Below, in pieces: positions 3,885-20,592 of a stretch of DNA of 23,203 nt. Source of the stretch: a virus; the IMG/VR virus record IMGVR_UViG_3300036886_000016, positions 1 through 23,203 of that record. One strand, 5' to 3'. The translations under genes were made by a program, and so were the position numbers. The notes under the pieces are model-generated. The model was not told the origin of the DNA and made no database searches. It was given only the letters and a program-made list of their open reading frames with translations. The stretch's first letter is position 1. Every line of letters begins with the position of its first letter.

Positions 3885-5332
3885 GTTATCGTGACCGCGA
3901 TGTTCGCCGCCGCGATAATAGGCGACTGGTTTATATTGACAGAGACCGAGTTAAGCGTCGGAGCCGCCGCCACGATGATGCCGCTCAAGACCGTGAGCGA
4001 GTTGTTCAAGTTGTACGTCCCCGTTCCTCCCGCGCCGCTCCCGAGCGAGACGATCTTCGTGCCGGGTACGATTCCTGCCGTTCCGCCGACGGATCCACCG
4101 AACGAACCGGAGAGCGTCTGCCCGACGGCGAGCGCCCCGGAGATGACCGCCGTCACCGTCATGACCGTTCCGTTGATCGAGCCCGTCACCGTCGCGGCCG
4201 GCGAGTTGATCGAGCCGTCGAGGATCGAGATGATCTGTATCCATGACCCGAGCGCGGCGAGCGGGGCGTAGAAGCGGCTGGCGTAGATCGTCGAGCCGAT
4301 CGTCGCCCGCGGTCCGCCGTCGGCCCCGGCGAATGCGTTGATGAGCGCGTTCTGGATCTGCGTCGCGGCGTCCGACGGGACGAGCGCGTTGTTCGCGATG
4401 TTGACCGCGAAGAGGATCTCAAGCCCCGGCGGGATCTCGTACGTCACCTGATAGGACGGAAACGGCTGCGCGTATCCGGCGTTCGAGTCGAGAACCGTCT
4501 TCGTCGTGTTGCCGTTATAGTTGCAGCCCGGAGACTTCTTCGCCCATATCGCGTTCGCGACCGCCTGCGGATCTCCGCCGACCGCGGCGACGTAGACCGA
4601 ATGCGCGACGAGCGAGACCCCGCCGATCGTCGCCGGCGCGTTCGCGACGTTCTCCGTGACGTAGGCGTCGAGGACGCCGGGGACCGCGAGGACCGCGCCG
4701 CGGATCGACGGGAGCGATCCGACCGAGTTCAGCGCGACCGATGCCGCCCGGCGCGCCTCGAATGCCGCCCGGCTCTCGACGTTCGCGCCGAGGACGCCGT
4801 CGGTCGGGTTGTTGATGCTGTCCCACCCGGGGATCGCCTTATAGATCTGCGTTAGCGTGTTCGCCGGGCACGCGGTCGGCCCGACGACGGTCGAGGCGAA
4901 CTGCGCGGAGACCGTCCCGCCGACGCCGATCGTCGAGTCCCCGGTCGCCTGATAGAGCGTCCCGTCCGCCGCGAGCGCGAGCGAGCCGCCCGGGATGACG
5001 ACGCCCGCGAGGCCCGTGCACGTGCACTGGACGACCGTCGGCTCCGCCGGGTTGCGTTCGAGGAAGTAGATCCGCGCGAGGCCGTCCTGCCAGCGCCCGG
5101 AGGCGTAGGCCGGGTCGAGCTGCTGCGTCATGAAGACGAACGTGTCGTTCGAGTTCCCGACGACCGCCGCCTCGCTCGACGCGAGTTGGCCTTGCGGCGT
5201 CGTAAGCGCCGGATCGAGCCCTCCGCCGAACGCCGCGTCGATGTCCTCGGTCACGCCCGCGAGGATCTGCGCCTCCGTCGGAGCGATAAAGCCCGTGGGC
5301 CCGAATGTTGGCTTGGGAACTGATGTTGCCAT
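3881..5332 (-). CDS. Baseplate J-like wedge protein
   Basis: 483 residues. The ATG is one base after the stop of the W-like gene. The order is typical of the baseplate J/gp47 family: N-terminal PTFGPTGFIAPTEAQILAGV, a domain with LTTPQGQLASSEAAV (about 43-57), the conserved core NPTDGVLGANVESRAAFEARR (about 175-195), and LPSIRGAVLAVPGVLDAYVTEN (about 207-228). The protein forms the baseplate wedge around the hub. Residues about 381-448 are a Gly/Thr-rich beta module (TGSINGTVMTVT to GTGTYNLNNSLTV) that is not part of the J fold and is also found in the neck, terminator and sheath proteins of this window. The C-terminal piece after the module (LNSVSVNINQSPIIAAANIAVTI) looks like the normal family end, so the module sits as an insertion near the C-terminus. 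Confidence 0.92.
   Translation of the reverse strand: MATSVPKPTFGPTGFIAPTEAQILAGVTEDIDAAFGGGLDPALTTPQGQLASSEAAVVGNSNDTFVFMTQQLDPAYASGRWQDGLARIYFLERNPAEPTVVQCTCTGLAGVVIPGGSLALAADGTLYQATGDSTIGVGGTVSAQFASTVVGPTACPANTLTQIYKAIPGWDSINNPTDGVLGANVESRAAFEARRAASVALNSVGSLPSIRGAVLAVPGVLDAYVTENVANAPATIGGVSLVAHSVYVAAVGGDPQAVANAIWAKKSPGCNYNGNTTKTVLDSNAGYAQPFPSYQVTYEIPPGLEILFAVNIANNALVPSDAATQIQNALINAFAGADGGPRATIGSTIYASRFYAPLAALGSWIQIISILDGSINSPAATVTGSINGTVMTVTAVISGALAVGQTLSGSFGGSVGGTAGIVPGTKIVSLGSGAGGTGTYNLNNSLTVLSGIIVAAAPTLNSVSVNINQSPIIAAANIAVTIT
3989..4192 (-). repeat. Beta-repeat module copy 4, in baseplate J
   Basis: Encodes about 68 residues with the pattern TGSINGTVMTVTAVISG, a Gly-rich middle, then GSGAGGTGTYNLNNSLTV. 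It matches the modules at 14010-14186, 13462-13638 and 12453-12632 in pattern. It is longer by about 8 residues because of an extra GGSVGGTAG-type stretch in the middle. This is the most divergent of the four copies. Confidence 0.75.
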
Positions 5333-5720: not shown

Positions 5721-6218
5721 TTAGGTGAGGGCTATCTCCCGCCATGCTAAAACCAGTTTTATCCAGAGCCGGGGTGAGGTGGCTAGATTTGTGCCGTCGT
5801 AGCTATAATAAAAATCTCCAGTGGCCCCGATGAAAGAACTCGGTACTGACTGTGTAGTATTGACCAGCAGATTGATTGTTCCAGCCGGGCCGGGTGCGCC
5901 CGCTGCCCCCGCAGCTCCGGCCGCGCCCGCAGCGCCAGCCGCTCCATTTGCTCCATCTGTTCCACGCGCTCCGTTCGCTCCTGGCACGCCGGCCGGCCCG
6001 GCGGGGCCTGGGACCCCGGTGTAGATATTTGGGTCGTGCAGGGAATAATGGCCGCACCACCAATCAGTCTCTACGCCAAGCCATCGCGCGAACGGGAAGT
6101 CGGCCGAATTTGATCCGACAGACTGCGGCACGCTGTTTACGCACGAAAAGACAGGATTAGCCTCCCCCTCGTAGGTAACGGAACGGCCGTAAAAGCAATT
6201 CGAGCATTGGTCGACCAT
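5721..6218 (-). CDS. Collagen-like protein with N-terminal cysteine cluster, within the baseplate gene set
   Basis: The ATG at 6218 lies one base after the stop of the spike gene and gives 165 residues. Residues 1-60 contain CSNC (5-8), Cys26 and a WWCGHYS segment (Cys55), which together could bind a metal or form disulfides. Residues 68-115 are about 16 perfect Gly-X-Y triplets, mostly GAA and GPA, expected to form a collagen-type trimeric helix. The last 50 residues (NLLVNTTQSVPSSFIGATGDFYYSYDG-type) look like a small beta domain ending in LAWREIALT. Collagen-like stretches are common in phage fibres and appendages. The position between spike and W suggests a minor baseplate appendage or decoration. 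Its function is not known. Confidence 0.82.
   Translation of the reverse strand: MVDQCSNCFYGRSVTYEGEANPVFSCVNSVPQSVGSNSADFPFARWLGVETDWWCGHYSLHDPNIYTGVPGPAGPAGVPGANGARGTDGANGAAGAAGAAGAAGAAGAPGPAGTINLLVNTTQSVPSSFIGATGDFYYSYDGTNLATSPRLWIKLVLAWREIALT
5874..6017 (-). repeat. Collagen-type Gly-X-Y repeat coding tract
   Basis: About 16 consecutive Gly-X-Y codon triplets (GVP GPA GPA GVP GAN GAR GTD GAN, then GAA repeated, then GAP GPA). At DNA level it is a GC-rich near-repeat of GCC/GCG and GGC codons. Such tracts tend to change length by slippage. Confidence 0.85.
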
Positions 6219-6219
6219 G

Positions 6220-6942
6220 TTATGTCCCCGCAGTTGGCGCGAGAGTTGTCGCGGCGCCGATTGTGACGCCAGCGTGCTTGTGAGTCTGAAGACCGACCTG
6301 ATCGGCCGTGCCCTGCCCGGCAACGACCGCGCCCTTCGTCTTTATGTCTCCCGCGTAGATCGAGCCGTCGAGCGCCTCGATCGAGCCGGAGAGTTGGAGC
6401 GCGCCGTCGACGAAGACCGGCCCGGTGAGGTGGATGCCGTCCGCTTTCATCTCGATCACGTGGTTGTTCTTATCGGAAAGTTTGATCCCGTCGTCCGTGA
6501 TCGCGATCGTCTGCGTCGCCGCGCCGTTCAGGACGCCGCCGAAGTAGACGCCGTCCGCCGCGTCGAGCTTGCGGAGCGATCCGGGGTTCGCCTGCGCCTT
6601 CGTCGACTTGACCGACGAGATGTCGCGGTCCGCGCAAACCATCACGCCGATGTCGTCGACCTCCGGCGTCAGGATGATCGCGTTCGCACCGGCCTGATAG
6701 ACGAAATACGGGATGCCGAAGATCGTCCCGTGCGGCGTCGAGTTCCCCGCGCCGTCGAGCTGGTTGACCAGCGGTAGGACGTCGACGGTCTTCGCGTCGG
6801 AGTCGACCGCCTGCACCTTGACGAGCTTCATCGTCGAGATCTGCGCGAGCATCTGCTCGATCGTAAAGATCAGGACGTTGTACGCGTCCGCGCTGTCGGA
6901 CGGATCCTGCTGGCCGTAGCCCTGATTCGTTTGCTCGGTCAT
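6220..6942 (-). CDS. Baseplate central spike, Gp138/gpV type
   Basis: 240 residues. The ATG overlaps the hub stop as ATGA. Residues about 35-110 (MKLVKVQAVDSDAKTVDVLP, then HGTIFGIPYFVYQAG and GDIGVMVCADRDIS-like sequence) match the OB-fold of the Gp138 N-terminal family, the spike of contractile tails. Residues about 145-205 form a repetitive beta region (DDGIKLSDKNN, ADGIHLTGPVFVDG, LSGSIEALDGSI) expected to be a trimeric beta-helix. The end, THKHAGVTIGAATTL, carries an H221-K-H223 pair like the HxH motif that holds iron at the tip of P2 gpV and phi92 gp138 spikes. It would pierce the outer membrane on contraction. Its neighbours are the hub upstream and the collagen-like protein downstream. 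Confidence 0.9.
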   Translation of the reverse strand: MTEQTNQGYGQQDPSDSADAYNVLIFTIEQMLAQISTMKLVKVQAVDSDAKTVDVLPLVNQLDGAGNSTPHGTIFGIPYFVYQAGANAIILTPEVDDIGVMVCADRDISSVKSTKAQANPGSLRKLDAADGVYFGGVLNGAATQTIAITDDGIKLSDKNNHVIEMKADGIHLTGPVFVDGALQLSGSIEALDGSIYAGDIKTKGAVVAGQGTADQVGLQTHKHAGVTIGAATTLAPTAGT

Positions 6943-8819: not shown

Positions 8820-10265
8820 CTACTGCTGCCCGTTGTTCGCGCTCGCCGCGTCGTTCTGCCGCTTCAGGATGGCGTCGCGGAAGTCGTTCGCGATCGCCGC
8901 CCCGTTCTCGCCCTTCGCGTAGACGTTGACCGTGTCGATCTTGATCTCCGACGTGCTGGTCGAGGTCGATCCCCCGTTGTTCGTCACGCTCGACTGCGCC
9001 GCGCTTCTCGCGCCCGGGCTCTCACCAACCGGGCCTTTATAACCGTGCCATGCCGATGTGCCGTGCTCGCGCATCCAATCGAGCGAGAATCGGATCTGCT
9101 CCGCCTCCGTTGCAGGATTGCGAGCATCGAGTCCGGTCTTCTTCGTAAAGATGTCGCCCAAACCTCCGACGGCCATCCCACCGCCAGCAACGTTTCCATA
9201 ATGAAGCTGGAACGGCCCAAAGGATGATCCGCGGTCGCCGACGTAGCCGCCCTTTCCTTCTCCGGTCCAGACGCCGACGGCGACGTTCGGGTCGATGGGA
9301 TGCGGACCCTTCACCGCCTCCGCGCGAATGAACGCCTCTCTCTCCGCGTTCGACTTGAACGGGCCGGAGCGGCTCGCAGCGCCGCCCGGGAAAAGCGGCT
9401 GGCCTATCTGCGTCTTTGTGTCCTTGTTCGTGAGATAATCCCACGCCTCGCTCGGCGTCAGGTTCAGGAAGTCCGCCGCTTTGATCGCCGCCGTGAAGAC
9501 GCCGAGCTTTCGGCCGATCGATTCGGCCTTCAGCCCGATCTGGCCCCACCGCTTCTCGAACTCGCCGGCCGCATCGGTCGCGCTAGGGGTCGCTGCACCG
9601 ATCCTCTGGACGTAGTCGAGAATCTCCTTCATCCCCGCCGATCCGCGCAGCAGGAGATCGACGAACGCAGGATCCAGCCCGAGCCGCCGGCCTAGCAGTC
9701 CGGCTTCTGCCGGTCCGTTCGGTCCGCTATCGTGAATGGCCTTCAGATTGTCCGCGAGGTCCATGAGCGCCTGGTCGACGCCCTTGTTGACGTCGATGAC
9801 CTTCCCGCCGGCCGTGCTGATCGCGCGCAGGTCGGCGACCATCGGCGAGATGATGCCTATCTTCCAGCCGGCGAAGACATCCGAGAGCGACGTGAACGAA
9901 CCGGCGAGCCCCTCCGCAGTCCCGCCGAAGATCCTCGCGGCGCCCTGCCACCGCGAGATCGTCTCGACCGAGACGCCGATGTTGCGGTTCAAGCGGCCGA
10001 GGTTCGCGTCGGCGTGCGCGAGCGATAGGAAGAACTCTGTAACGCCGTAGCCGCCGGTGAACGCCGCGAACAGACTGAGCGCCTGCCGGTGCGCGAACGT
10101 GAGCGCCTCGCCAGCGCGCATGCTCGACTGCTCGACCTCCTTCGCGCCCTTGACGGCCGCGGCCTGCGTCTTCTTGAACGCGTCGAGCGCGTCCTTCTGA
10201 TTCTTATTAAACTTGGAAGCATCGAGCCCTAGCGTAACGACAAGGGCGTCAATTTCAGTCGCCAC
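8820..10265 (-). CDS. Short tape measure protein with C-terminal muramidase-like domain
   Basis: 481 residues from a GTG at 10265, 3 bases after the chaperone T stop. The N-terminus (DALVVTLGLDASKFNKNQKDA, residues 6-26) is typical of tape measure proteins, followed by an Ala/Lys-rich helix and a hydrophobic segment around 60-82. Residues about 308-412 hold a peptidoglycan-hydrolase pattern: NAEREAFIRAEA, then WTGEGKGG with Glu336 as the likely catalytic acid, GDRGSSFGPFQLHYG, GGLGDIFTKKTGLD and AWHGYKGP. This is the tail muramidase type found in other phage tape measures and tail lysozymes. About 1.5 angstrom per residue would give a short tail of roughly 70 nm. It lies between the G/G-T chaperones, which fold it, and the Dit-like protein. 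Confidence 0.9.
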   Translation of the reverse strand: MATEIDALVVTLGLDASKFNKNQKDALDAFKKTQAAAVKGAKEVEQSSMRAGEALTFAHRQALSLFAAFTGGYGVTEFFLSLAHADANLGRLNRNIGVSVETISRWQGAARIFGGTAEGLAGSFTSLSDVFAGWKIGIISPMVADLRAISTAGGKVIDVNKGVDQALMDLADNLKAIHDSGPNGPAEAGLLGRRLGLDPAFVDLLLRGSAGMKEILDYVQRIGAATPSATDAAGEFEKRWGQIGLKAESIGRKLGVFTAAIKAADFLNLTPSEAWDYLTNKDTKTQIGQPLFPGGAASRSGPFKSNAEREAFIRAEAVKGPHPIDPNVAVGVWTGEGKGGYVGDRGSSFGPFQLHYGNVAGGGMAVGGLGDIFTKKTGLDARNPATEAEQIRFSLDWMREHGTSAWHGYKGPVGESPGARSAAQSSVTNNGGSTSTSTSEIKIDTVNVYAKGENGAAIANDFRDAILKRQNDAASANNGQQ

Positions 10266-10268
10266 GGC

Positions 10269-10891
10269 CTACGTCCTCTGCTTGCGAAGGATCGCCCGGT
10301 TCTCCGCGTTTATCAGGTCGATCTCGATCATGTCGTAGCAGTCCTCGATGCCGTAGACCGTGCCGAGTTCGTTCAGCGTTGCGAGTCCGGTCGAGACGAC
10401 GGCTCCGATGAGTCCGGAGACGTTCGGGTAGTCCTTGAGCGCCGCCGCGGCTGTCCGTCCACCGACGCCTTCAGCCATTCGGCGGCGGCGGCGAAAGTAA
10501 AACCCGCGTGGAGCTCCAAAATCTTCTGGCGGAGCAGGAGGAGCGTCGAGACCTCTTCGTAGTCCGACGCCATCGTCGGGCGCGTCGTCGTCGAGCGCGC
10601 GGCGCCCGGCACGTTCTGGACGATCTGGATGCAGCCGAGCATCTCGTCCATCAGCGGCTCGACGTTCTCGAACTGCGCCCCGGCGAAGCCCTTGTAGCCC
10701 ATGATCGCGATGCCGATCATGCCGGCCGCCGCGATCTCCGGCGGGATAACGACGTCCTTGTTCGTCATCGCGAGGAAGGCGCGGGCCGCCCACTTCTCCG
10801 TGCGGATCGCGTCCATCTCGGTTAGGAGGAACGTCTTGCCAGAGTCCCGCCCTGGCGCCGTGATGACGACTTCTTCGGTCTTGCGCGGCAC
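10269..10891 (-). CDS. Tail assembly chaperone G-T fusion made by -1 frameshift
   Basis: The frame that encodes the first 131 residues of protein G continues after a one-base backward slip into a second frame ending at the stop 10269-10271. The proposed product is 207 residues. The T part (GGRTAAAALKDYPNVSGLIG to YGIEDCYDMIEIDLINAENR) looks genuinely coding, while the zero frame below about 10450 turns into an Arg/Ser-rich shadow. The slip site G GGT TTT (10505-10499) is in the correct register, and a 9-bp GC stem follows 5 bases later. Fusions of this kind (lambda G-T, P2 E-E') hold the tape measure during tube assembly, and the tape measure gene follows 3 bases later. An alternative is a separate 69-residue protein starting at the ATG at 10478. 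Confidence 0.75.
10373..10891 (-). CDS. Tail assembly chaperone G (unshifted product)
   Basis: 172 residues from a GTG preceded by GGAGG at 6-base spacing. The beginning (TEEVVITAPGRDSGKTFLLTE, residues 5-25) and WAARAFLAMTNKDVVIPPEI are typical of small tail chaperones encoded between tube and tape measure. PLMDEMLGCIQIVQ and YEEVSTLLLLRQKILELHAGF follow. The last 35 or so residues are Arg/Ser/Thr-rich and look like read-through of the other frame, as expected if most conserved sequence continues in the shifted product. The 61-base gap upstream (10892-10952) holds only the ribosome binding site and a weak GC-rich inverted repeat. Confidence 0.8.
   Translation of the reverse strand: MPRKTEEVVITAPGRDSGKTFLLTEMDAIRTEKWAARAFLAMTNKDVVIPPEIAAAGMIGIAIMGYKGFAGAQFENVEPLMDEMLGCIQIVQNVPGAARSTTTRPTMASDYEEVSTLLLLRQKILELHAGFTFAAAAEWLKASVDGQPRRRSRTTRTSPDSSEPSSRPDSQR
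10440..10505 (-). promoter_or_regulatory. Programmed -1 frameshift signal: GGGTTTT slip site plus GC stem
   Basis: On the minus strand, GGGTTTT occupies 10505-10499 and is phased X XXY YYZ with respect to the G frame (GCG GGT TTT). Five bases later begins CGCCGCCGC (10493-10485), which can pair with GCGGCGGCG (10448-10440), a 9-bp all-GC stem with a 36-base loop. Slip heptamer, spacing and downstream stem match known -1 signals in tail chaperone genes. That it is used is inference. Confidence 0.7.
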
Positions 10892-10952: not shown

Positions 10953-11381
10953 CTACGCGATCGACGGGACGACCGACTTCCAGCGGATCGCGAACTTCTG
11001 CTGCTGCGCGAGCTTCTTGATGTCGGGGATCGGCTTGTAGCCGATCAGGAAGCCGCGCGAGAGCGTCCACTTCTTCCCGAGCGACGGCAGGACGATGAGG
11101 CCCTCGGCGGTCAGCGTATCGAGGAGCGCCTGCTGCTGCGCGTACCACTGATCGAAGATGAAGACCGACTCGCTGTCCGCGAGCAGCGTGACGCCCTGCT
11201 CGAACGGCATGAAGACGAAGCCGCCGGTGAACTCGCCGTCGACGCCCATCATCGTCTCCGACGAGTCGAGGACGTTACCGTCCGCGACCTCGTCGACGCC
11301 GAAGCCCTGGAGTTGGACCGGGGTGTCGAAGAGCCCCGGGATCGTGATCATGAAGACGCAGTTCGCGGCGGTCAGGGACAT
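10953..11381 (-). CDS. Tail tube protein
   Basis: 142 residues. The ATG at 11381 has AGGAG upstream, partly formed by the sheath stop codon. The sequence SLTAANCVFMITIPGLFDTP, the middle with SSETMMGVDGEFTGGFVFMP and VTLLADSESVFIFDQWYAQQ, and the end KFAIRWKSVVPSI fit the small beta-barrel tube proteins of Mu-like, Pam3-like and related myoviruses. The main support is its place directly after the sheath and before the chaperones. It would form the hexameric rings through which DNA passes. Confidence 0.82.
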   Translation of the reverse strand: MSLTAANCVFMITIPGLFDTPVQLQGFGVDEVADGNVLDSSETMMGVDGEFTGGFVFMPFEQGVTLLADSESVFIFDQWYAQQQALLDTLTAEGLIVLPSLGKKWTLSRGFLIGYKPIPDIKKLAQQQKFAIRWKSVVPSIA

Positions 11382-11390
11382 CGTTCGCTC

Positions 11391-13100
11391 CTACTGAATC
11401 ACGACGCTCGTGAGGTTGATCTGCTGGACGCTGCCGCCGTCGGCGTACCAGAACGTGCACGGCGGCGAGCCGCGGGCGGCGCGCACCGTCGGCGACGCGT
11501 CGAGGACCTGAAGATACCAGCCCTGCTGCGTGATCGTCGGCGCGATGTTCGCCTTGGCCGCGGCGTTGACCGCCGCGATCTGCGAGGAGGAGAGCGTGAC
11601 GCCGACGCGGATCGCGCCGAAGTTCAGAGCTTGGTCGATCGTCGACTTGAGCGCCTGCTCGATCGAGGCCCGGCCCGCCGCGTTGTACGGGATCGACTTT
11701 GAGCCGAGTAGAAGCGCGAGCAGCGCGGACTGGAACGAACTGTTGAGCCAAATCTGGTTGCAGTAGGTGTCCATCCACGCGAACGCGCCGGAGACCGACC
11801 CCTTCGCGAGGATGTTGAACTGCGGACCCGCTTCGGCGTAGGCGCCGTAGTAGTTGTAACCGTTCGAGAGCAGGTTCGCCGACGTCGTGAGGTCGGTGAC
11901 GCCCGGCACGAGGCCGGCCTGCGTCCGGAACATGAAGTCCGTCCGGCCGTTCGTCTGCGAGAAGTCGATCGACGCCGCGATCCCCATGACGAAGGCTTGG
12001 TGCATGAGGTCCGACGGCTCCCAAATCGGGAAGCTGCCGGAGTCTCCGGCCGCGATAAGCTGCTGGCCGAGGCTGGAGCTCGCCGGGACCGTCGTCGTCG
12101 GAGACGCGTCGGTGTCCCACGGAACATAGGCGTACTGCTGGTTCTGCCCGGAGGCCCAAGCCGCGAACGCGAGCTTGTTCGTGTTCCCGGAATTATCCGG
12201 GTTGAACGCGGTCGTGAACGTCGCCCAGTTCCTCACCGAGGCGATGAGCGTCGTCATGAAGGCGGAGGGCGTCGCCGCGGCCGCTCCCTGCGATAGGACC
12301 GCGCCGGTCGCGGACGTGAGCAGGAGCGACGTTCCGAGCGCGCCGGACGCGAACGTGATCGTCGAGGTCGAGCCCGCCGAGCCGGAGACGGTGAAGGCCC
12401 CCGAGACGCTGTCGTACTGAACGGCCGGGCTGTAGGCCGTGATCGCCTGCGAGATCGCGGTCTGCGAGGGCGAGACGGTGTAGGTGCCGGCGCCGCCGGT
12501 GCCGGTCAGCGCGCCGACGATGTAGGTCGCCGCGGTCACGCCGGTTCCCGAGAGCACGTCGCCCGCGCTCAGGCCGCCCGAGCCGAGCGCGGTCACGGTC
12601 AGCGTCGTTCCAGCGATCGAGCCGGTGATCGTCGCCGCCTGCGTACCCTCGATGCCGAGCGCCGCGGCGATGATCTCCGCTGCGTTCGAGAACGAGGTCG
12701 CGGCCGAAAGGTTGATGCTCGCCGTCTTGAGGACGCCGTCGATCGTGACCGAGAGCGTCCCGGAGAGCGCCTGAAGCTCGGCGAGCGTCATCGCCGATAT
12801 GTTGCCGCCCCGGAGATAGGCCGAGACCGCCGCCGTCGGATACTGCGCGACGAGCAGCGCGCCGGGCTTCTTGTTCGATCCGTCGAAGCCGGCGAAGTAG
12901 ATCGCGGCCCAGAGCGCCTCGTAGGACGTCCCGCCGAAGAACGAGTTGACCGCCGCCGCGTTCGCGAAGCTCGAGACCGTGCCGACCGGGACGCGCGTAT
13001 TCGCGCTCAGGAGGAGGCCGTTCAGGTCGACCGCAGACCCGCCCGCGGCGAGGACGTTCGGCGTGACGTTGACGAGCTGTGAGGCCGGGATCGTCGACAT
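11391..13100 (-). CDS. Tail sheath protein (DUF3383 family) carrying an inserted beta module
   Basis: 569 residues, ATG with AAAGGA 8 bases upstream. The start TIPASQLVNVTPNVLAAGG, then VDLNGLLLSANTRVPVGTV, YFAGFDGSNKKPGALLVAQY (about 68-87) and AYLRGG is the DUF3383 pattern, the contractile sheath of this phage class. The later conserved parts are VQYDSVSGAFTVSGSAG, PWDTDASP, NGYNYYGAYA, and MDTYCNQIWLN. Residues about 157-216 ([13 protein letters not shown] to GTYTVSPSQTAIS) are the Gly/Thr-rich module that recurs in three other proteins here. It interrupts the outer domain between EIIAAALG and the VQYDSVSGAF stretch, so it probably protrudes from the tail surface. The sheath drives contraction; tube and sheath genes are adjacent as usual. 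Confidence 0.9.
   Translation of the reverse strand: MSTIPASQLVNVTPNVLAAGGSAVDLNGLLLSANTRVPVGTVSSFANAAAVNSFFGGTSYEALWAAIYFAGFDGSNKKPGALLVAQYPTAAVSAYLRGGNISAMTLAELQALSGTLSVTIDGVLKTASINLSAATSFSNAAEIIAAALGIEGTQAATITGSIAGTTLTVTALGSGGLSAGDVLSGTGVTAATYIVGALTGTGGAGTYTVSPSQTAISQAITAYSPAVQYDSVSGAFTVSGSAGSTSTITFASGALGTSLLLTSATGAVLSQGAAAATPSAFMTTLIASVRNWATFTTAFNPDNSGNTNKLAFAAWASGQNQQYAYVPWDTDASPTTTVPASSSLGQQLIAAGDSGSFPIWEPSDLMHQAFVMGIAASIDFSQTNGRTDFMFRTQAGLVPGVTDLTTSANLLSNGYNYYGAYAEAGPQFNILAKGSVSGAFAWMDTYCNQIWLNSSFQSALLALLLGSKSIPYNAAGRASIEQALKSTIDQALNFGAIRVGVTLSSSQIAAVNAAAKANIAPTITQQGWYLQVLDASPTVRAARGSPPCTFWYADGGSVQQINLTSVVIQ
12453..12632 (-). repeat. Beta-repeat module copy 3, in the tail sheath
   Basis: Encodes about 60 residues, [17 protein letters not shown] to GTGGAGTYTVSPSQT. 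It shares the exact 20-base word GTCAGCGTCGTTCCAGCGAT (plus strand, 12598-12617) with the copy in the neck gene (14155-14174), so the two are related at DNA level. Confidence 0.8.
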
Positions 13101-13113
13101 GAGATTTATCCTT

Positions 13114-13842
13114 TCACGGCGGGTAGGCTACATCGACGTCGATGACCGTCACGGAGACCGCGTCGCCGTACTGCTGCGGCGTCCCGGTGACCGTCTCGTT
13201 CGCCTGCAGATGCGCCTCGACGACCCATCGGTCCTCGTACTGCTGCTCGGCGTTCAGGAACGGCATCTGGCGCGGATCGTCGGCGTAGAGCGGGGTGACG
13301 GCGGCGTTCAGCGCGGTCATGAAGTCGACCGCGCTCGCGTCGCGGAGAAGCGTCGAGATGATCTGCGCGTTGTCGGCGCCGGAGGGGCCGTGCACGTCGA
13401 GCTGGACGACGATCTCCGTCTCCTGGACGACGTCGATCGAGCCGCACGAGAGGTTCGCGCTTCCGAGCGCCTGCGACGGCGAGACCTTGTAGGTCCCCGG
13501 CCCACCGGTTCCTGACGTGAACGACGTGATCGTCGTCGAGGCCGCGATGCCGGTCCCGAAGATCGTCGCGCCGAGCGCGAGTATCCCGATCAGGACCGAC
13601 GAGACCGTCAGCACGTTACCGGCGATCGAACCGACGAAGAGGCAGTCGTTGTCCCCGTCGAGGTTCGTCCCGAGGCGCTGGCGCCGGATCGGCGTCATAA
13701 GGACGAAGTCCTTCGCCTTCGGTTCCGGCACGCGATTCACCTGTGCCAAGATAACCTCGACCTTGCTCGGCAAGACGTTGAGCAAGAAGGCCCGGAGGAC
13801 CTTCAGGACGGAGGATTGAGTCGGTGCGACGGCGATGGTCAC
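13114..13842 (-). CDS. Neck / tail terminator protein (gp12-like) with inserted beta module
   Basis: 242 residues from a GTG at 13842; the same frame has a TGA a few codons upstream, which limits the start. The N-terminal part (VLRAFLLNVLPSKVEVILAQ, residues 15-34) with PEPKAKDFVLMTPIRRQRLGT, and the C-terminal part (VQLDVHGPSGADNAQIISTL, ALNAAVTPLYADDPRQMPF, QYEDRWVVEAHLQANETV) match phage neck terminator proteins that cap the tube below the connector. Between them, residues about 69-127 are the repeated Gly/Thr module (VGSIAGNVLTVSSV to GTYKVSPSQ). The gene is followed by the sheath. The start codon has only a weak ribosome site; the 65-base gap upstream holds no clear promoter or terminator. 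Confidence 0.85.
   Translation of the reverse strand: MTIAVAPTQSSVLKVLRAFLLNVLPSKVEVILAQVNRVPEPKAKDFVLMTPIRRQRLGTNLDGDNDCLFVGSIAGNVLTVSSVLIGILALGATIFGTGIAASTTITSFTSGTGGPGTYKVSPSQALGSANLSCGSIDVVQETEIVVQLDVHGPSGADNAQIISTLLRDASAVDFMTALNAAVTPLYADDPRQMPFLNAEQQYEDRWVVEAHLQANETVTGTPQQYGDAVSVTVIDVDVAYPP
13462..13638 (-). repeat. Beta-repeat module copy 2, in the tail terminator
   Basis: Encodes about 59 residues, VGSIAGNVLTVSSVLIG to SGTGGPGTYKVSPSQ, same pattern and length as copies 1 and 3. It lies between the RLGTNLDGD segment and the GSIDVVQETEIVVQLDV strand of the host protein, a spot that varies in length in this family. Confidence 0.78.
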
Positions 13843-13907: not shown

Positions 13908-14483
13908 TCAAGAGCCGTCTTGGAGCGTCACACAAAGCTTGCTCCAGTCGGGCCAAGACTCCAAAACTAGGGCCACGAGCCAGACGGCCCCGCTCGTCAT
14001 GGCGACCGGGCCGACGGTCTGATCGATGTCGACCTCGTAAGTGCCTATGCCGCCGGCGCCGGTCCCGAGCGCCGTGATCGATGTTCCGTCGAGGATGCCG
14101 CTCCCGGCGAGACCGGCGCCGACCGCGATCTGGCCGGAGAGGACGCTCGTGACCGTCAGCGTCGTTCCAGCGATGGAACCTGTGAAGAACGCCCCGGGGA
14201 CCGTGACGAGGTCGCCGCCGCGGTTCTCGACGCGGACGAGCCCCTCGACGCGGCCGTTGACGTAGATCGCCCGGCGCGTGCCCTGGAGGTTCAGGCCGTC
14301 GATCTGCTGAATGTCGCGGAAGGTGAGCGACTGGACCTGACCGGGCACCGAGACCGCCGGCGCGTAGGACGGAACCCGCGTCCCGTCGTCGTCGGTCGAG
14401 TAGCCGGTCGAGACCCGGATAGAGATCGGTAGGAACGGATTAACGGTCCCTATCGCGCCCGCGGCGATTTGATGGAGGTTCAA
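13908..14483 (-). CDS. Neck/connector protein carrying an inserted beta module
   Basis: 191 residues from a TTG at 14483, preceded by GGAG with 6-base spacing. The ATG codons further in would lose conserved-looking sequence. The N-terminal part ([20 protein letters not shown], then [20 protein letters not shown] and [20 protein letters not shown]) and the end ([20 protein letters not shown]) look like a small neck protein that joins the head connector to the tail terminator. It occupies that position. Residues about 100-158 are the Gly/Thr-rich module also found in the terminator, sheath and baseplate J. The module falls in what should be a turn between VTVPG and VWLVALV. It is the first tail gene after the metabolic cassette, 3 bases after the radical SAM stop. 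Confidence 0.75.
14010..14186 (-). repeat. Beta-repeat module copy 1, in the neck protein
   Basis: Encodes about 59 residues, [18 protein letters not shown] to [18 protein letters not shown]. It contains the same exact 20-base word (plus strand 14155-14174) as the sheath copy (12598-12617). Confidence 0.8.
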
Positions 14484-14486: not shown

Positions 14487-15959
14487 CTACTCCGCCGCTG
14501 CTGTCTCCGGTTCGAGCAGCCTACGCCGAAGCGTGTGGCGAGTCATCTGCCGGACGTGCGCGACGGTCGCGGCGCCGAACTTCTTCCCGATCATCGCGAG
14601 GTAGTCCGGATCGCTGAAGTAGGTCCGGAAGGCGTCGTCGCGGAACTTCAGGACGCGCGCCGCGTCGACGTGGAGCGTGTCGAGCGGCCGGCAGTCCTCG
14701 GAATGCTGACTGTAGCCGAGCCACGTCGCCGGGAGCGTCGAGCCCTTCGCGACCGCCTCGGCGAAGAGCGGCGAACCCGGATAGGCCATCGCGCTATAAA
14801 AATTTGCGAAGTCCGTGTTGAGCTCCAGCGCGAGGTCGAGCGTCGTCTGCATCGAATAGGCGTCGTCGTCCGGAAGCCCGAAGATGTAGTTCCCGATGAC
14901 GTTGATCCCCGCCGCCTGAATCTGCCGGACGATCCCGACGATGTCGTCGTTCTTGAGTTTCTTCGACGCGCCGTCACGCACGAAGGCGCTCCCGGATTCG
15001 ATCCCGAGCGCGAGCCAGCGGATTCCGGCGGCGCGCAGGAGCGCGAGCTTCTCCGGCTTGACCGTGTCGATCCGCGAATACGCCCAGATGTTGAGGCGCG
15101 ACGCGATCCCCGAGGCGACGAGGCCCTCGCAGATCGCCGTGTAGTGCCGCTCGTTGAGGACAAACATCTCGTCGACGATCTTGAACACTTGAACTCCGTA
15201 TTTAGAGTTCAAGTTGACGATCTCCGCGACGACCTTCGCCGGGTCGCGCATCCGGTATCGGCGCGAGGCGAACGGCGCGTTGATGCAGCAGAAGTCGCAG
15301 GCGTACGGACAGCCGAACGACGTGTGGATCGAGGCGTACGGCTTGCGCGCCGAGAGATCGCCGAAGCATTGCCAGTTGTGCGCCCGGTAGCGGTCCATCG
15401 GGAGGAGATCCCACGCGTCGCCGTCGAGATCGTCGATGTCGAGGAGCGGGGCGCGGGGATTGATGATAATCGGCTCCCGCTTTCCATATACGAGTCCAGG
15501 GATAGCCTCGAAATCATCACCGGCGAGCAATCCGGTGATCGTAATGGGACCCTCGCCGACACATGCAAAATCAATCATTTCCTCACGAAGAGTCCGCTCC
15601 GGAAGCGCGGAGACGTGACCGCCGACCATAATGATCGGAACAGAACCCTTGCGGGCCTTAATCGCGCGCGCCGTTAGGCCGGCGGCGTGCATCTGTTGCG
15701 TGGCCCCACTAGGTTGATGACCGTATGCAGCGATGCAGACTAATCTTGGGTTGAACTCGCGAACGAGGAGCGCTACCTGTTCTGGATCAAGTTTCATCGC
15801 TTCAGCGTCAATAATTTTAACGCTAAATCCGCGAGCGCGGATATATCCAGCCATCACGCGGCCCCACAATGGTGGCTCCACGGCCACCAGATCGGAACCG
15901 AGTTCTCCGTAGATTCCGTGAACCCCCCCGGGATGAATTACGACAAGATCAAGCGACAT
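14487..15959 (-). CDS. B12-binding-domain radical SAM protein
   Basis: 490 residues, ATG start overlapping the end of the HNH gene by 11 bases. The N-terminal 145 residues have the alternating beta-alpha pattern of a cobalamin-binding domain (LDLVVIHPGGVHGIYG, VEPPLWGRVMAGYIRARGF, KIIDAEA, PRLVCIAAYGHQPSG, IIMVGGHVSALP), without the DxHxxG motif, as in the BchE-like class. The radical SAM core follows with TSFGCPYACDFCC, giving the iron-sulfur ligands Cys217, Cys221 and Cys224 (CxxxCxxC). Later are KIVDEMFVLNERHY, WLALGIESGS and YIFGLPDDD, all usual for the family. These enzymes do methylations or other radical rearrangements; the substrate cannot be read from sequence. The 5' third (above about 15460) has lower GC than the rest. 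Confidence 0.9.
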   Translation of the reverse strand: MSLDLVVIHPGGVHGIYGELGSDLVAVEPPLWGRVMAGYIRARGFSVKIIDAEAMKLDPEQVALLVREFNPRLVCIAAYGHQPSGATQQMHAAGLTARAIKARKGSVPIIMVGGHVSALPERTLREEMIDFACVGEGPITITGLLAGDDFEAIPGLVYGKREPIIINPRAPLLDIDDLDGDAWDLLPMDRYRAHNWQCFGDLSARKPYASIHTSFGCPYACDFCCINAPFASRRYRMRDPAKVVAEIVNLNSKYGVQVFKIVDEMFVLNERHYTAICEGLVASGIASRLNIWAYSRIDTVKPEKLALLRAAGIRWLALGIESGSAFVRDGASKKLKNDDIVGIVRQIQAAGINVIGNYIFGLPDDDAYSMQTTLDLALELNTDFANFYSAMAYPGSPLFAEAVAKGSTLPATWLGYSQHSEDCRPLDTLHVDAARVLKFRDDAFRTYFSDPDYLAMIGKKFGAATVAHVRQMTRHTLRRRLLEPETAAAE

Positions 15960-16452
15960 GCGCCCACGCCTTCCGTTTGCGGATTGCAGTGATCAACGAT
16001 TTATGGACACTGAACTGCCGCGCTAAGTCGACGCCGCGCTTATCGCTTAATCTGATTTCCCGAACCTTTTCATCGTCTAATATAGCGTTGCCGTTCTTGA
16101 TTCCCGGCAACGACTTTGCCGGTCCATTTTGGCGACCCCTGGCGCTGCAATCGCGCATATTATCGGTGTTTGTTCCTAGGAAAAGATGGGCTGGATTGCA
16201 GCACGACGGATTATCGCAGCGGTGACAAACGAAAAGACCGGCCGGGATTGGCCCATTATGAATTTCCCAAGAGATGCGATGTGCGTAAAGATTCTTCCTA
16301 TAGTTTTCGAGACGACGCCTGATGTGGAGCGATCCATAACCCACACCGTTGGTGTCCCCTGTCCATCCCCAACATCCGTCCCGAACGAGAACCTTCTCCC
16401 AGAATCGATCCGCAATCGGTCGACTCTTCCTCGTATATTGACCTGATGGCAT
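15949..16452 (-). CDS. HNH endonuclease, likely free-standing homing enzyme
   Basis: 167 residues from the ATG at 16452, which overlaps the epimerase stop as TGATG and has GGGAA upstream. A longer GTG form would extend 11 codons into the epimerase. RFWEKVLVRDGCWGWTGDTN (16-35) is the usual opening of this HNH group. The active-site region runs from AHRISWEIHNGP (His58) to CHRCDNPSCCNPAHLFLGT (Cys76, Cys79, Cys84 and Asn86/His89), the zinc-holding HNH_3 type. Residues 123-160 (AILDDEKVREIRLS to SLITAIRKR) form a helix-turn-helix for DNA recognition. The gene is AT-richer than the epimerase and radical SAM genes it separates. Confidence 0.92.
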   Translation of the reverse strand: MPSGQYTRKSRPIADRFWEKVLVRDGCWGWTGDTNGVGYGSLHIRRRLENYRKNLYAHRISWEIHNGPIPAGLFVCHRCDNPSCCNPAHLFLGTNTDNMRDCSARGRQNGPAKSLPGIKNGNAILDDEKVREIRLSDKRGVDLARQFSVHKSLITAIRKRKAWAHVA

Positions 16453-17387
16453 CAGACGTTCCCGCACTGATACTTCCGAAAGCACTGGTATAGCTTGATA
16501 AGCTCTCGAAACCCGTCGTCGATACTATAGGCCGGAACCCATCCCGTCCTCTCCATTTTCTCGTTAGAAACGATATAATCGCGCTTGTCTGGGTCTTCGG
16601 CGATCGGCGCTTCCATGAAGTGAAAGTTTGGGATCTGTAGTTTGATGCGTTCGCAAAGCTGCCGCTTCGACATATTGGCGCGGCTGTCCCCGACGTTGAA
16701 CGTATTGCCGCGCATCTTCTCGAAGTTGTCGATCGCATGAAGGAAGGCGCGGGCGACGTCCCTTACGTGACAAAAGTTCCGCATAAAGTCCTGCTGAAAT
16801 AGGACGATTGATCGCTCGCTGACCGCCTTCCAGACGAATTCATTCAAAAGCAAATCGGTGCGATGACGCGGTGAAGCGCCGAAGACCGTCGCGAGCCGGA
16901 ATGTCACCGCGTTCCGCCGTTCGAGGACGAGCAGCTCCGCCGCGCACTTCGTCTGCCCGTAGATCGAGATCGGTTTGAGCGGCGTCTCTTCATCGCACTC
17001 CTTCCCCGGCTGGCCGACGCCGTAGCCGCTGTTCGTATTCGGGAAGATGAACCGCTGCTCCGGGGACGCCGCCTCAAGGAGACCCTTGATCGCCCCGTAG
17101 TTCGTCGACCACGCCGCCTCCGGGTCGCGATCGCAGAGCGGCGCGCCGACGAGCGCGGCGAGCGGGATGACGTAGTCGGCCTTCGCGAGGAGCGGGATGA
17201 CGACGTCCGTGTTCCGGGCATCGCCGCGGACGACCTCGAAGCGCGGGTCGAAGCAAAGCGCATTGAGCGATTCCTGGCCCCACCGAAACGAGTCGACGAC
17301 CGTGACGTGGTGACCGGCGTCGAGCAGAGCCGGAACGAGGATCGAGCCGAGGTATCCGGCCCCGCCTGTGATCAAGATTGAAGGCAT
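16452..17387 (-). CDS. NAD-dependent sugar epimerase/dehydratase family protein
   Basis: 311 residues; GAAGGGA lies upstream of the ATG. It is an extended short-chain dehydrogenase: ITGGAGYLGS (6-15) binds the dinucleotide, and the catalytic set is Ser120 (NTNSGYG), Tyr143 and Lys147 (IYGQTKC). The C-terminal part with FMRNFCHVRDVARAFLHAI and NTFNVGDSRANMSK binds the nucleotide-sugar. A Ser rather than Thr, and no following Asp-Glu pair, argues for an epimerase or reductase rather than a 4,6-dehydratase. It would act on a soluble NDP-sugar in the cytoplasm, probably the same one used by the dehydratase just upstream. GC falls in the last 180 bases next to the HNH gene. Confidence 0.88.
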   Translation of the reverse strand: MPSILITGGAGYLGSILVPALLDAGHHVTVVDSFRWGQESLNALCFDPRFEVVRGDARNTDVVIPLLAKADYVIPLAALVGAPLCDRDPEAAWSTNYGAIKGLLEAASPEQRFIFPNTNSGYGVGQPGKECDEETPLKPISIYGQTKCAAELLVLERRNAVTFRLATVFGASPRHRTDLLLNEFVWKAVSERSIVLFQQDFMRNFCHVRDVARAFLHAIDNFEKMRGNTFNVGDSRANMSKRQLCERIKLQIPNFHFMEAPIAEDPDKRDYIVSNEKMERTGWVPAYSIDDGFRELIKLYQCFRKYQCGNV

Positions 17388-17398
17388 CGAGTTTCCCT

Positions 17399-17578
17399 TC
17401 AGCGCAACAGCGAATAAACGAACAATCCCATGACGATCACTGCTGAGGGAGCAATCATGATGATTGCGCTACAGCCGATCGGGACGCTGTCGGCCGGTTG
17501 CCGGCTCAGGCTTCGGTAGGCCAAGAACGGCCAGACGACCGCCGTGAGCAGCGAAAGTACGATGAACAGCCGGATCAT
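17399..17578 (-). CDS. Two-helix membrane miniprotein overlapping the dehydratase gene
   Basis: A 59-residue ORF with an ATG at 17578 and an AAAGGT ribosome site 8 bases upstream. It has two clear hydrophobic segments, LFIVLSLLTAVVWPFLAY (4-21) and AIIMIAPSAVIVMGLFVYSL (38-57), joined by the polar linker RSLSRQPADSVPIGC. It overlaps the last 110 bases of the upstream sugar enzyme gene in another frame and ends 11 bases before the epimerase start. I do not recognise the family. A role as a membrane anchor for the pathway or an unrelated small phage membrane protein are both open. Confidence 0.62.
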   Translation of the reverse strand: MIRLFIVLSLLTAVVWPFLAYRSLSRQPADSVPIGCSAIIMIAPSAVIVMGLFVYSLLR

Positions 17579-18707
17579 CGGAATACCTTTTGATGACAGC
17601 GACCGCCGCAGCGATTTCCTCGCTCATGTCGCCCGGCCGATTCCCGAGAAACAAACCGGTGCGACCAATGATGTCCGCGTTCGGCGTCTCCTGCCCGACG
17701 CGGTAGGGCGCGCCATAAGGGTGCTGGAGGAAGCTGCCGCCCGTGGGAAGGCGGGCATCGATCCCTTCGGCCCGGAAAGCCGCCACTAGCTGATTCCGCG
17801 CAGGAGCCTCGCCGACGCGGAAACTGAACCCGAACGGGCTTGGGTCGCCTTCGTGGTCCTGAAAGTCGATAGGCGAGCCCCGGACGGCCCATTTGAACGC
17901 CTCTAGGTTCTCCGCACGAGCCCTTACGAACCCGGGGAGTTTCTTGAGCTGCTCCCGGGCAATGGCCGCGTGCATCTCTAAACCCCTCAAATTGTACCCC
18001 ATAATTTCAAATTGATACTCATCTTCAAAGGCTTGCGCGGGTTCCACATCCCGCGTCCAGCCGTGCGCCCGCAGCATCCGGCAAAGTCGGTCGCATTCAT
18101 CGTCATCCGTCAGGACCGCCCCGCCTTCGATCGCCGAGACCTGGTGGCTGTAGAAGAAGCTCTCCGTCGCCATCAGCCCGAAGGACCCGGTTGTCGCCCC
18201 CTTGATCCGGGCGCCGAGCGACTCGCAGTCGTCATTGATGAAATAGGCGTCCATCACGCCAGCGGCCGACTGCCACCCGGGCAAGTTCGCCGGGCTCCCG
18301 AGAATGGAGCAGCCGACGACGAGGCGAACGCCTTCTGGCGATTGAAGATTTCCATAGAGATCAGCGTTCCAACTCCCGTCGCAGTCCGCCAGCACGAGGT
18401 CGAGCCCGTATTGGACGAGGGGGGCATAGGTTGTCGCCCAAGCCACCGCCGGCACGATCACCTTGTCCCCCCGCTTCAGGGGTCGATGTTTCACGTGTGA
18501 CAGTGCCGCGACCGCGATTAAGTTCGCCGAGGAGCCGGAATTTACCATCACGGCGTGCTTCCGACCGTGAAACGCCGCCAATTCCCGCTCGAACGCCGCG
18601 ACCTCCTCGCCCTGCGTGAAACGGCCAGACCGGATCACGCGCTCGATCGCCTCGCGCTCCTCCTCGCCGTGAGCCGAATAGGCTGTCGGATGCTTCCACT
18701 CGGTCAC
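17469..18707 (-). CDS. DegT/DnrJ-fold sugar enzyme with His for Lys, ColD/RfbH-like 3-dehydratase
   Basis: 412 residues from a GTG with GGAGGG upstream; GTGA overlap with the previous stop. PLP-enzyme features: VIRSGRFTQGEEVAAFE (24-40), HAVMVNSGSSANLIAV (51-66) for the phosphate, KVIVPAVAWATTYAPLVQYG (82-101), and NDDCESLGA (158-166) with the Asp that holds the pyridine nitrogen. In aminotransferases a Lys follows near SFxxxK; here the sequence is ESFFYSHQVSAIEGGAV with His188 at that place. ColD and RfbH-type enzymes have this same change and remove the 3-hydroxyl of 4-keto-6-deoxy sugars instead of transaminating. No ferredoxin domain is seen, so it is nearer ColD than RfbH. The last 37 residues lie over the downstream miniprotein gene and look like an added tail. 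Confidence 0.9.
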   Translation of the reverse strand: MTEWKHPTAYSAHGEEEREAIERVIRSGRFTQGEEVAAFERELAAFHGRKHAVMVNSGSSANLIAVAALSHVKHRPLKRGDKVIVPAVAWATTYAPLVQYGLDLVLADCDGSWNADLYGNLQSPEGVRLVVGCSILGSPANLPGWQSAAGVMDAYFINDDCESLGARIKGATTGSFGLMATESFFYSHQVSAIEGGAVLTDDDECDRLCRMLRAHGWTRDVEPAQAFEDEYQFEIMGYNLRGLEMHAAIAREQLKKLPGFVRARAENLEAFKWAVRGSPIDFQDHEGDPSPFGFSFRVGEAPARNQLVAAFRAEGIDARLPTGGSFLQHPYGAPYRVGQETPNADIIGRTGLFLGNRPGDMSEEIAAAVAVIKRYSDDPAVHRTFAAHGGRLAVLGLPKPEPATGRQRPDRL

Positions 18708-18931
18708 GCCGTTCCCTCCGAAGTCTGAGCCGCCGCGTGGTGCTCAACGTCTCGAGCTAGTTCTGGCCCCGTCCATCCCGCAGTGGCAAGGAACCGCGAT
18801 AGGTTTACCCACAAACTATAAGCCACGCCGACCGGATCGGACTCGCCTTCGATGCTGTCCATGAACTCCTCGAAAATCTCATCTCCGCGTTCTGTTGCTT
18901 CTGCAATTTCCTCGTCGGTCGGATCAGCCAT
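18704..18931 (-). CDS. Small acidic protein of unknown function
   Basis: 75 residues, ATG start overlapping the end of the E1 beta-like gene by 8 bases and ending in a GTGA overlap with the next gene. It is strongly acidic in the first half (DPTDEEIAEATERGDEIFEE) with a hydrophobic patch VGVAYSLWVNLSRFLATAGW (34-53), so probably a small helical protein. There is no metal motif or signal peptide. I do not recognise it. Tight coupling to both neighbours suggests that it is expressed with the sugar enzymes, perhaps as a helper subunit. Confidence 0.72.
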   Translation of the reverse strand: MADPTDEEIAEATERGDEIFEEFMDSIEGESDPVGVAYSLWVNLSRFLATAGWTGPELARDVEHHAAAQTSEGTA

Positions 18932-19445
18932 AAAGCGCCATCCTCTCGACGAGCAACGTTGAACCCTCGAAGGCCATCGCGGCGCGATACTCGGGGACGA
19001 TCGACTCGGCGTCGTTCAGATCCACGACGCGCACGGTCTTAAGCATCCCACGGAAGACGTCGGAGAAGTCGCCTAAATGTTGGGGCCCTGGATCAAGCGG
19101 CTCCGCCGTCGCAACGGCCGTCCGGATAATCACCCGCGGCCGGTAGTCTGAAAAAATCGGCAACTTGTCGAGATGAAGCACGATCTGGTTTGTCGCCAAT
19201 AAAAGGAAGTTAAACCGTGGGAACATGCACACGGGCAAATCGCCAGCGAGCGCCGCGCCCGTACAGAAGCCGGCCTGCATATCCTCCGCGACTGGAAACT
19301 CGATCCGCTTCTCCATCGGCACGTCGCGGAGCGTAGTATGCATCGCTGTCCCAGCGAAACGGGTCGCCTGCCCGACGAACACCGATCTCGGATGCTCGGC
19401 GACGAGCGCCATCGCACGGCAGAGTTGATCAAAATACAGGCTCAC
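18924..19445 (-). CDS. Short E1 beta-like subunit of a thiamine diphosphate enzyme
   Basis: 173 residues from a GTG at 19445 that forms a GTGA overlap with the preceding small ORF. The family begins exactly here (SLYFDQLCRAMALVAEHPRS aligns with the usual E1 beta opening), while an ATG 47 codons upstream would add sequence unlike the family. The pyrimidine-binding domain has VFVGQATRF, then RIEFPVAEDMQAG with Glu54, the residue that activates the cofactor, and the following GAALAGDLPVCMFPRFNFLL. E1 beta subunits are normally about 325 residues. Here the C-terminal transketolase domain is missing and the protein ends after LLVERMALYG. It pairs with the alpha-like gene upstream. Substrate unknown. 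Confidence 0.82.
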   Translation of the reverse strand: MSLYFDQLCRAMALVAEHPRSVFVGQATRFAGTAMHTTLRDVPMEKRIEFPVAEDMQAGFCTGAALAGDLPVCMFPRFNFLLLATNQIVLHLDKLPIFSDYRPRVIIRTAVATAEPLDPGPQHLGDFSDVFRGMLKTVRVVDLNDAESIVPEYRAAMAFEGSTLLVERMALYG

Positions 19446-19594
19446 GGTTTGTGCTGTCCGTAAACAATCCAACGCGATTGCTTGGCCGTCATGAAGATGA
19501 AGCGCCATGGCTGGCGACCAGCGCCATGCTGCTTGCGTGCCTGTATCCAGACCGCTCGCCAGAAAATGAACCCGCCATAGAGCCAAGCGCGCAT
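19442..19594 (-). CDS. 50-residue Trp-rich, basic ORF between the E1 alpha and beta genes
   Basis: The ATG lies 1 base after the alpha-like stop, and the TGA overlaps the GTG of the beta-like gene. The 50 residues include MRAWLYGGFIFWRAVWIQAR at the start and end with RWIVYGQHKP. Five Trp and many Arg/Lys give a basic aromatic protein, possibly membrane-associated. I do not recognise it. It fills the gap between two genes that should be adjacent, with neat start and stop junctions, which is the main reason to believe it. It could still be a by-product of the alternative beta start. Confidence 0.55.
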   Translation of the reverse strand: MRAWLYGGFIFWRAVWIQARKQHGAGRQPWRFIFMTAKQSRWIVYGQHKP

Positions 19595-19595
19595 T

Positions 19596-20189: not shown

Positions 20190-20455
20190 TGCGCGGCGAC
20201 CTTCATGAGGACGACGAAGGCGATCAGGCCGAGCCCGAGCGACAAAATTCCGACAACCCACGGCAGAAGATCGAGTGCGGATTTTCGGTCTAGTATGAAT
20301 GCCGTCGTCGTCGCCCAATCTGTCGACCCGCAGTCCGGACATGCGTAGGTCGCCACGCCGGGGGCCGCAGCCATATTCCGCAGCCGATTGTTAAGTGCCG
20401 ACCGACTGCGCGCCGCCCATGTCGCGCAGTTTTCACAAGTCTTGGAACGTTCCAT
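20186..20455 (-). CDS. Small zinc-ribbon protein with C-terminal membrane helix
   Basis: 89 residues from the ATG at 20455, which overlaps the previous stop as TGATG. CENC (7-10) and CPDCGSTDW (39-47) form a likely zinc ribbon. Residues about 63-85 (LLPWVVGILSLGLGLIAFVV) form one membrane helix, with Lys85 and a short tail after it. I do not recognise a function. The design (cytoplasmic zinc ribbon plus tail anchor) suggests a small membrane-bound adaptor. It is coupled to the E1 alpha-like gene by an ATGA overlap. Confidence 0.72.
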   Translation of the reverse strand: MERSKTCENCATWAARSRSALNNRLRNMAAAPGVATYACPDCGSTDWATTTAFILDRKSALDLLPWVVGILSLGLGLIAFVVLMKVAAQ

Positions 20456-20592
20456 CACTTCTCCGCAACCTCTTTGACGGCCTCGACCAACTCGCGAATC
20501 TTGTCCGCGTCGACAACCCATCCGGCCTCCTCTGCGAGCGTCGCAGTGGTTTCAGCCAGAGCCAGCAGTAGCGCGCGTTCTTCTTCGGTCAT
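20455..20592 (-). CDS. Small acidic helical protein, 45 residues
   Basis: The ATG at 20592 overlaps the stop of the HNH gene as ATGA, and the TGA overlaps the next ATG. The sequence is nearly all helix formers (MTEEERALLLALAETTATLA, then DADKIRELVEAVKEVAEK), so a coiled coil is likely. It is acidic overall and has no known motif. A second in-frame ATG three codons upstream (20601) is possible. Supported by the perfect junctions on both sides; function unknown. Confidence 0.62.
   Translation of the reverse strand: MTEEERALLLALAETTATLAEEAGWVVDADKIRELVEAVKEVAEK

Follow-up and report, generated by a model that had tools for sequence, protein, structure and literature searches.

A probable −1 programmed ribosomal frameshift joins the G and T tail assembly chaperone ORFs across a lineage of contractile-tailed phages

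Results

Organization of the tail chaperone locus

The window analysed herein is the whole of a 23-kb virus record from IMG/VR (IMGVR_UViG_3300036886_000016; 23,203 nt), the minus strand of which harbours a contractile-tail module in the order head and neck proteins, sheath, virion structural protein, G/T, tape measure and baseplate. The tail sheath gene (11391..13100, minus strand) matches phrog_205 (E-value 6.7e-87) and DUF3383. It precedes a gene 5′ of G (10953..11381, minus strand) which is similar both to phrog_1964, a 'virion structural protein' family (E-value 1e-38), and to the Pfam entry E217_Gp32 ('tail fiber protein gp32'). Because it is placed after the sheath gene, the product of this second gene is read as a probable tail tube protein. 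Lying between these sheath and tube-like genes and the tape measure gene are two overlapping ORFs, G and T.

G (10373..10891, minus strand) begins with a GTG codon and encodes a tail assembly chaperone of 172 aa, as assigned from a 21-sequence alignment (A1) and from phrog_1932, the tail assembly chaperone family, which is matched over profile positions 3–132 of 134 (E-value 4.1e-33). Within G is the candidate slippery heptamer, G GGT TTT (10499..10505, minus strand), for which NNT TTT is found at the homologous site of relatives. This is followed by a spacer of 5 nt (10494..10498), or of 8 nt in the register chosen by RNAfold, and then by the two arms of an all-GC stem of 9 bp, with the 5′ arm at 10482..10493 (in registers 10493–10485 or 10490–10482) and the 3′ arm at 10440..10448, all on the minus strand. 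The −1 frame around the slip reads FYFRRRRRMAEG, and from the slip onwards it continues as YFRRRRRMAEG... through the T domain, remaining open for 76 aa and a stop codon (10269..10499, minus strand). A G–T fusion made in this way is predicted to be 131 + 76 = 207 aa in length. The conserved core of the T domain (YxNV...ATLxELQTVYG...; 10272..10430, minus strand) is defined by a second alignment (A2) and by phrog_3976 (E-value 9.3e-17). The T stop codon occupies 10271–10269, and the GTG of the tape measure gene starts 3 nt later, at 10265. The tape measure protein itself (8820..10265, minus strand) is identified by phrog_2276 (E-value 2.1e-22) and by this spacing.

Elsewhere in the window, a repeat of 58–66 aa (...GTY...) is present in four virion proteins, namely the head protein, the neck terminator, the sheath and baseplate J. 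The copies (14010–14183, 13462–13635, 12453–12626 and 3989–4186, minus strand) display 44–54 % amino acid and 58–70 % DNA identity to one another, and have the look of a small domain dispersed among the structural genes of a single phage. The head and tail genes are preceded by a metabolic cassette (14487–20342, minus strand) containing a B12-binding radical SAM protein, an NAD-dependent epimerase, a DegT aminotransferase and two ORFs with transketolase/E1-type domains, which suggests sugar or surface-polysaccharide modification. Two HNH-type ORFs lie near or within this cassette on the minus strand, one (15949–16485) with a Pfam match well above the cut-off (E-value 4.8e-17) and the other (20589–21179) below it. 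A further minus-strand ORF (5721–6323) contains collagen-like Gly-x-y repeats (GPAGPAGVPGANGARG...GAAGAAGAAG).

Identity of the G and T products

The predicted structure of G (pLDDT 80) returns four matches in BFVD at E-value ≤ 0.001, one of which is named as a tail assembly chaperone and three of which carry no functional name; further named chaperones rank lower amongst its matches. A Foldseek comparison of the same model with the PDB gives no match at E-value ≤ 0.001, and no solved relative of G is found by sequence up to an E-value of 1. When the model is aligned with individual structures, the HK97 tail assembly chaperone (2ob9) superposes over 82 residues with a Z-score of 5.6, which is below the level that would prove a shared fold (rmsd 3.4, 12 % identity). 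YqbN (3klu), which we take to belong to the tail assembly chaperones, scores 5.3, with the next entry at 2.4 and the top entry, 5ir0 (unknown function), at 7.5. Such values are suggestive only of a chaperone fold in the G model, as Z-scores below 8 could reflect a common arrangement.

For T, all 21 members of alignment A2 match phrog_3976, a family annotated as 'unknown function', and neither T nor G has a Pfam match up to an E-value of 0.1. Foldseek places 15 BFVD entries against T, none at E-value ≤ 0.001; the best is an uncharacterized protein of 54 aa from Myoviridae sp. ctxpQ22, the same phage that yields a chaperone match for G. A search for solved relatives of T by sequence gave ten matches, the best with an E-value of 0.13, and all were set aside as unrelated-looking proteins.

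A T-like domain is also encoded, in one uninterrupted frame, by gp059 of Serratia phage MyoSmar (locus L126, 1156–1674), a 'hypothetical protein'. This is the sole T match in that record (hhalign probability 95.6), and no G match was found there, an empty answer that is weakly informative. As gp059 sits between the baseplate hub and spike genes and not in a chaperone locus, it does not speak against a frameshift; its occurrence is in keeping with a T domain that can be reused as a module.

Conservation of the frame relationship

Relatives were gathered from two scans of viral contigs, one scan of genome contigs (which gave one confirmed relative among 41 candidate stretches) and five named phage records. 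Together with the window this amounts to 116 loci containing both G and T or, since 27 contigs came in twice, to 89 distinct records by a hand count of contig names. Deduplication left 56 representatives, and a script located the (G/D/N)F motif of the site in 52 of them; the remaining four were examined manually and do not enter the counts based on 52 sequences. The representatives are related to each other, and counts made on them are not of independent events.

All 116 loci place T in the −1 frame relative to G. An earlier reading of the window made from its sequence only (the sequence-only reading) had proposed a −1 frameshift cassette in the tail chaperone gene, and had named relatives with a single uninterrupted frame as the observation that would point instead to a sequencing error; none is seen at this locus. 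An error of sequencing or assembly, or a decayed gene, might be entertained as the cause of the frame break in a window that is one metagenomic contig, but the same relation throughout the loci, which come from many samples and include named phage genomes, renders this exceedingly improbable.

Ten further phage records (L117–L125 and L127), read by hand at the chaperone locus, all show the same −1 relation of T to G along with an NNNTTTT site; MyoSmar is excluded from this count as a different locus. Three of the ten, L123–L125 (Bordetella, Stenotrophomonas and Pseudomonas phages), fit the arrangement and have G proteins that are absent from the 28 matches of the window G. Fourteen annotated phage records with this organization were inspected, and the two ORFs are joined in none of them: T is given a separate start in seven and no gene of its own in the other seven.

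The slippery site and the position of the shift

As the sequence-only reading stated, G GGT TTT is correctly phased, with the heptamer (10505–10499, minus strand) in phase with G as GCG GGT TTT. By itself, this is within chance expectation. The window contains a single GGGTTTT where 1.30 would be expected by chance, at least one is present in 73 of 100 shuffles, and there are 15 phased XXXYYYZ heptamers at the 5515 codon positions of the 17 minus-strand ORFs examined. The heptamer alone is therefore weak evidence, and the significance of the frameshift site rests on the relatives and not on the window sequence.

In those relatives the homologous site (LHxGF) reads NNT TTT in 115 of 116 loci. 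Amongst the 52 representatives, the heptamer is most often GGGTTTT (31), followed by GGATTTT (9), CGATTTT (3) and CGGTTTT (3), with AAATTTT (2), TGGTTTT (2), CAATTTT (1) and AGGTTTT (1) being rarer; its first base is G in 40. The four representatives read by hand comprise CGATTTT, GCCTTTT and AAGTTTT sites along with one locus, L008, that has no slippery site. A perfect XXXYYYZ heptamer is present in only 33 of the 56 (31 GGGTTTT and 2 AAATTTT). Codon choice at the site is uniform, with an NNT codon always preceding Phe: Phe is encoded by TTT in 52/52 cases, compared with 68 of 241 Phe codons elsewhere in matched G and T stretches, and wherever Gly is encoded (37/37) the codon is GGT, compared with 86 of 666 Gly codons in the same matched stretches. 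A conserved heptamer was what the sequence-only reading had asked of relatives; diverged ones do show the same or a closely similar heptamer in the same phase, together with a downstream stem.

L008 (IMGVR_UViG_3300037467_000001) is the only locus of the 116 that is without the slippery site. Near its LHV codons, CGC CCT ATA replaces GGT TTT Txx, and G, the linker and T in the −1 frame are all kept; this may be a genuine loss or an error in the local sequence.

Across all of G in the window the −1 frame stays open, giving a shift window of 571 nt, so the position of the shift is not pinned by this sequence alone. Such openness is what would allow the shift to occur elsewhere in the overlap, with the heptamer as a bystander. 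The relatives make this extremely unlikely. In L025 and L076 a zero-frame stop lies right behind the heptamer (GGT TTT TAA and GGT TTT TAG), confining the shift to windows of 31 and 28 nt that end in GGGTTTT and the stop codon. Moreover, conservation of the −1 frame begins right at the slip site, where the slip is followed by F, Y or L and then by Arg. Over the first 20 codons the −1 frame is free of stops in all 52 representatives; the zero frame terminates within 10 codons in 12 of them.

The linker and the internal ATG

Counted from the Gly column, position five is Arg in 49 of the 52 representatives and position six is a second Arg in 33. The sequence-only reading had remarked that the heptamer would place an unusual run of five Arg codons in the fusion; the five codons are there, but the run is not unusual, since the linker Arg residues are conserved in the representatives and that of the window is best seen as an extended F-x-x-R-R linker.

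The same reading drew attention to an ATG in the T frame and hence to two routes to the T sequence. The ATG does exist (10476..10478, minus strand, its first base at 10478), but it is probably no start and the second route is weakly based. T could be imagined as a separate protein initiated from this in-frame codon, whether translationally coupled to G or not, and the separate starts given to T by annotators in half of the records agree with that picture. Inspection by eye, however, reveals no Shine–Dalgarno-like or purine-rich sequence upstream of the ATG, and ATG, GTG and TTG are all missing between the slip site and the T core in 40 of the 52 representatives. In the remaining 12, the first such codon is TTG in five, ATG in four and GTG in three. 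The FxxRR linker that lies 5′ of the ATG is, in addition, itself conserved in the −1 frame. A separately initiated T is thus a very unlikely account of the locus and, because most representatives have no start codon between slip and core, free T is unlikely to be the usual product across this family.

The downstream stem

The 9-bp all-GC stem, claimed to lie 5 bases after the heptamer, is recovered as the minimum free energy structure. RNAfold pairs 10490–10482 with 10448–10440, leaving a spacer of 8 nt, and the alternative with a 5-nt spacer (10493–10485, read by eye from the sequence) uses the same 3′ arm and pairs equally well, owing to the repetitive sequence of the 5′ arm. The strength of the window stem depends on the stretch that is folded, with z-scores of −2.75 in a hand-picked 61 nt, −1.28 in 82 nt, −1.68 in 70 nt and −4.87 in the best-scoring 50-nt window out of 45 scanned. 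When the protein is held fixed, synonymous shuffles fold at least as well as the window in 174 of 500 cases (−1 frame) and in 48 of 500 (zero frame). The stem of the window is therefore largely forced by its Arg and Ala codons, and is unexceptional once the −1 frame protein is held constant.

Evidence for a stem comes from the family. A scan of the 52 representatives in 50-nt windows placed between −200 and +240 relative to the slip gives a mean z-score of −1.39 (se 0.18) directly after it, whilst those of the other 44 offsets range from −0.47 to +0.44. A 70-nt fold test gives a mean z-score of −1.02 (n=52) versus −0.19 at 258 control stretches. A contiguous stem of at least 7 bp (G–U allowed) that starts 3–8 nt after the slip is present in 32 of the 52, compared with a mean of 7.8 and a maximum of 16 in 100 sets of dinucleotide shuffles, and with 5–9 at eight other offsets. 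Against synonymous shuffles the excess amounts to mean z-scores of −1.31 in the zero frame and a weaker −0.75 in the −1 frame, compared with −0.59 to +0.06 at control positions, so part of the GC stem is a by-product of the linker codons. The stem–loop expected of a canonical X XXY YYZ signal with 3′ structure, at a spacing of about 5–8 nt, is present in the window and recurs in the family. An upstream Shine–Dalgarno-like stimulator is not enriched, being present in 7/52 at the site versus 0–9/52 at nine other offsets.

These features bear also on whether the two products might arise by transcriptional slippage, with RNA polymerase slipping on the T run to generate a mixed mRNA. The invariant part of the site is indeed a T run, and this extends to 7 or 8 T in L010, L029, L031 and L032. 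The run of the window, however, is only TTTT, which is short for polymerase slippage. Furthermore, the site fits a ribosomal heptamer because GGT is invariant wherever Gly is encoded, the first base is mostly G, and the stem lies 3–8 nt downstream; slippage of the polymerase is accordingly a highly doubtful source of the fusion.

Discussion

Taken together, the frames, the site, its phase and the stem in relatives support the proposed cassette, and G and T are very probably linked by a −1 programmed ribosomal frameshift of the lambda G/GT type. As judged from sequence comparison, this would be a known kind of frameshift, with a site that is family-wide in this lineage. What we infer is that the ribosome slips, how often it does so, and what G and GT do. 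In this scheme, most ribosomes would terminate at the G stop (10373) and yield the short chaperone, and a minority, delayed by the GC hairpin, would slip back by one base with tRNA-Gly and tRNA-Phe on G GGT TTT. The slipped tRNAs would re-pair on GGG TTT, bringing the ribosome into the −1 frame and generating the G–T fusion. By analogy with lambda, G would coat the tape measure protein and the T domain of the fusion would recruit tail-tube subunits, with the slip rate setting the G:GT ratio.

The likeness to lambda is one of architecture: the locus lies before the tape measure gene, G is short, T is a −1 extension, and a phased heptamer is situated near the end of G. Lambda differs in its slippery heptamer, which is GGGAAAG where that of the window is GGGTTTT. 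Further differences from lambda are the conserved downstream stem, and a T that belongs to the unnamed family phrog_3976. Programmed −1 frameshifting in tail assembly chaperone genes, as exemplified by lambda gpG/gpGT, is covered in a review (PMC5009743) that, in the part consulted, also names G_GGU_UUU amongst the shiftiest heptamers on mammalian ribosomes. The same source describes Escherichia coli dnaX, which shares with the present site a heptamer and a simple downstream stem–loop, and which differs in that a Shine–Dalgarno-like stimulator is not enriched here.

A further parallel is offered by Pseudomonas phage Adele and other Vandenendeviridae/Andersonviridae, for which the available part of PMC12846349 predicts a conserved −1 frameshift at a T-rich GTTTTT, argues the arrangement for Pakpunavirus and relatives, and notes that the T ORF is routinely annotated as a hypothetical protein. 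Both cases concern a myovirus chaperone locus with a predicted −1 frameshift at a T-rich motif. The lineages are different, however, and whilst the Adele case, in the portion consulted, is built on open frames and one motif, the present family adds a downstream stem, a codon bias at the site and relatives with a zero-frame stop after the heptamer. The portions consulted of PMC4440721, PMC10885494, PMC12846349, PMC5009743 and PMC13274417, and likewise of PMC12390725, PMC10329688, PMC10269795, PMC12512217 and PMC11324598, drawn mostly from non-subscription literature, contain no report of this frameshift in the named relatives, and the pertinent terms are absent from PMC11256456.

The P-site half of the heptamer is variable in this family (GGG, GGA, CGA, CGG, AAA, CAA, GCC, AAG ...). 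One speculative explanation, which we regard as possible but improbable on balance, is that the core signal consists of the A-site TTT-T and the hairpin, that the P-site half drifts as a dial of efficiency, and that shifted ribosomes may feed translation of the tape measure gene. On this last point, in 48 of 51 representatives the T stop has a long ORF starting no more than 20 nt away, where a long ORF is counted from the first start codon that gives at least 120 aa and is either ATG or preceded by upstream purines. Given that proximity, frameshifted ribosomes would end at the probable start of the tape measure gene. Tight gene spacing is, nevertheless, common in phage operons, and the closeness of the T stop to the tape measure gene may therefore mean nothing special.

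Returning to the frameshift itself, its recognition gives phrog_3976 a likely function, that of the part of a tail chaperone reached by frameshifting, and exposes a recurring gap in annotation, with G and T left unjoined in all 14 annotated phage records inspected. The relatives also constitute a natural series of heptamers with a hairpin at similar spacing, which would be useful for measuring the influence of P-site pairing on −1 frameshifting in bacteria. If the reading of the P-site half as a dial is true, then neighbouring phages would set different G:GT ratios.
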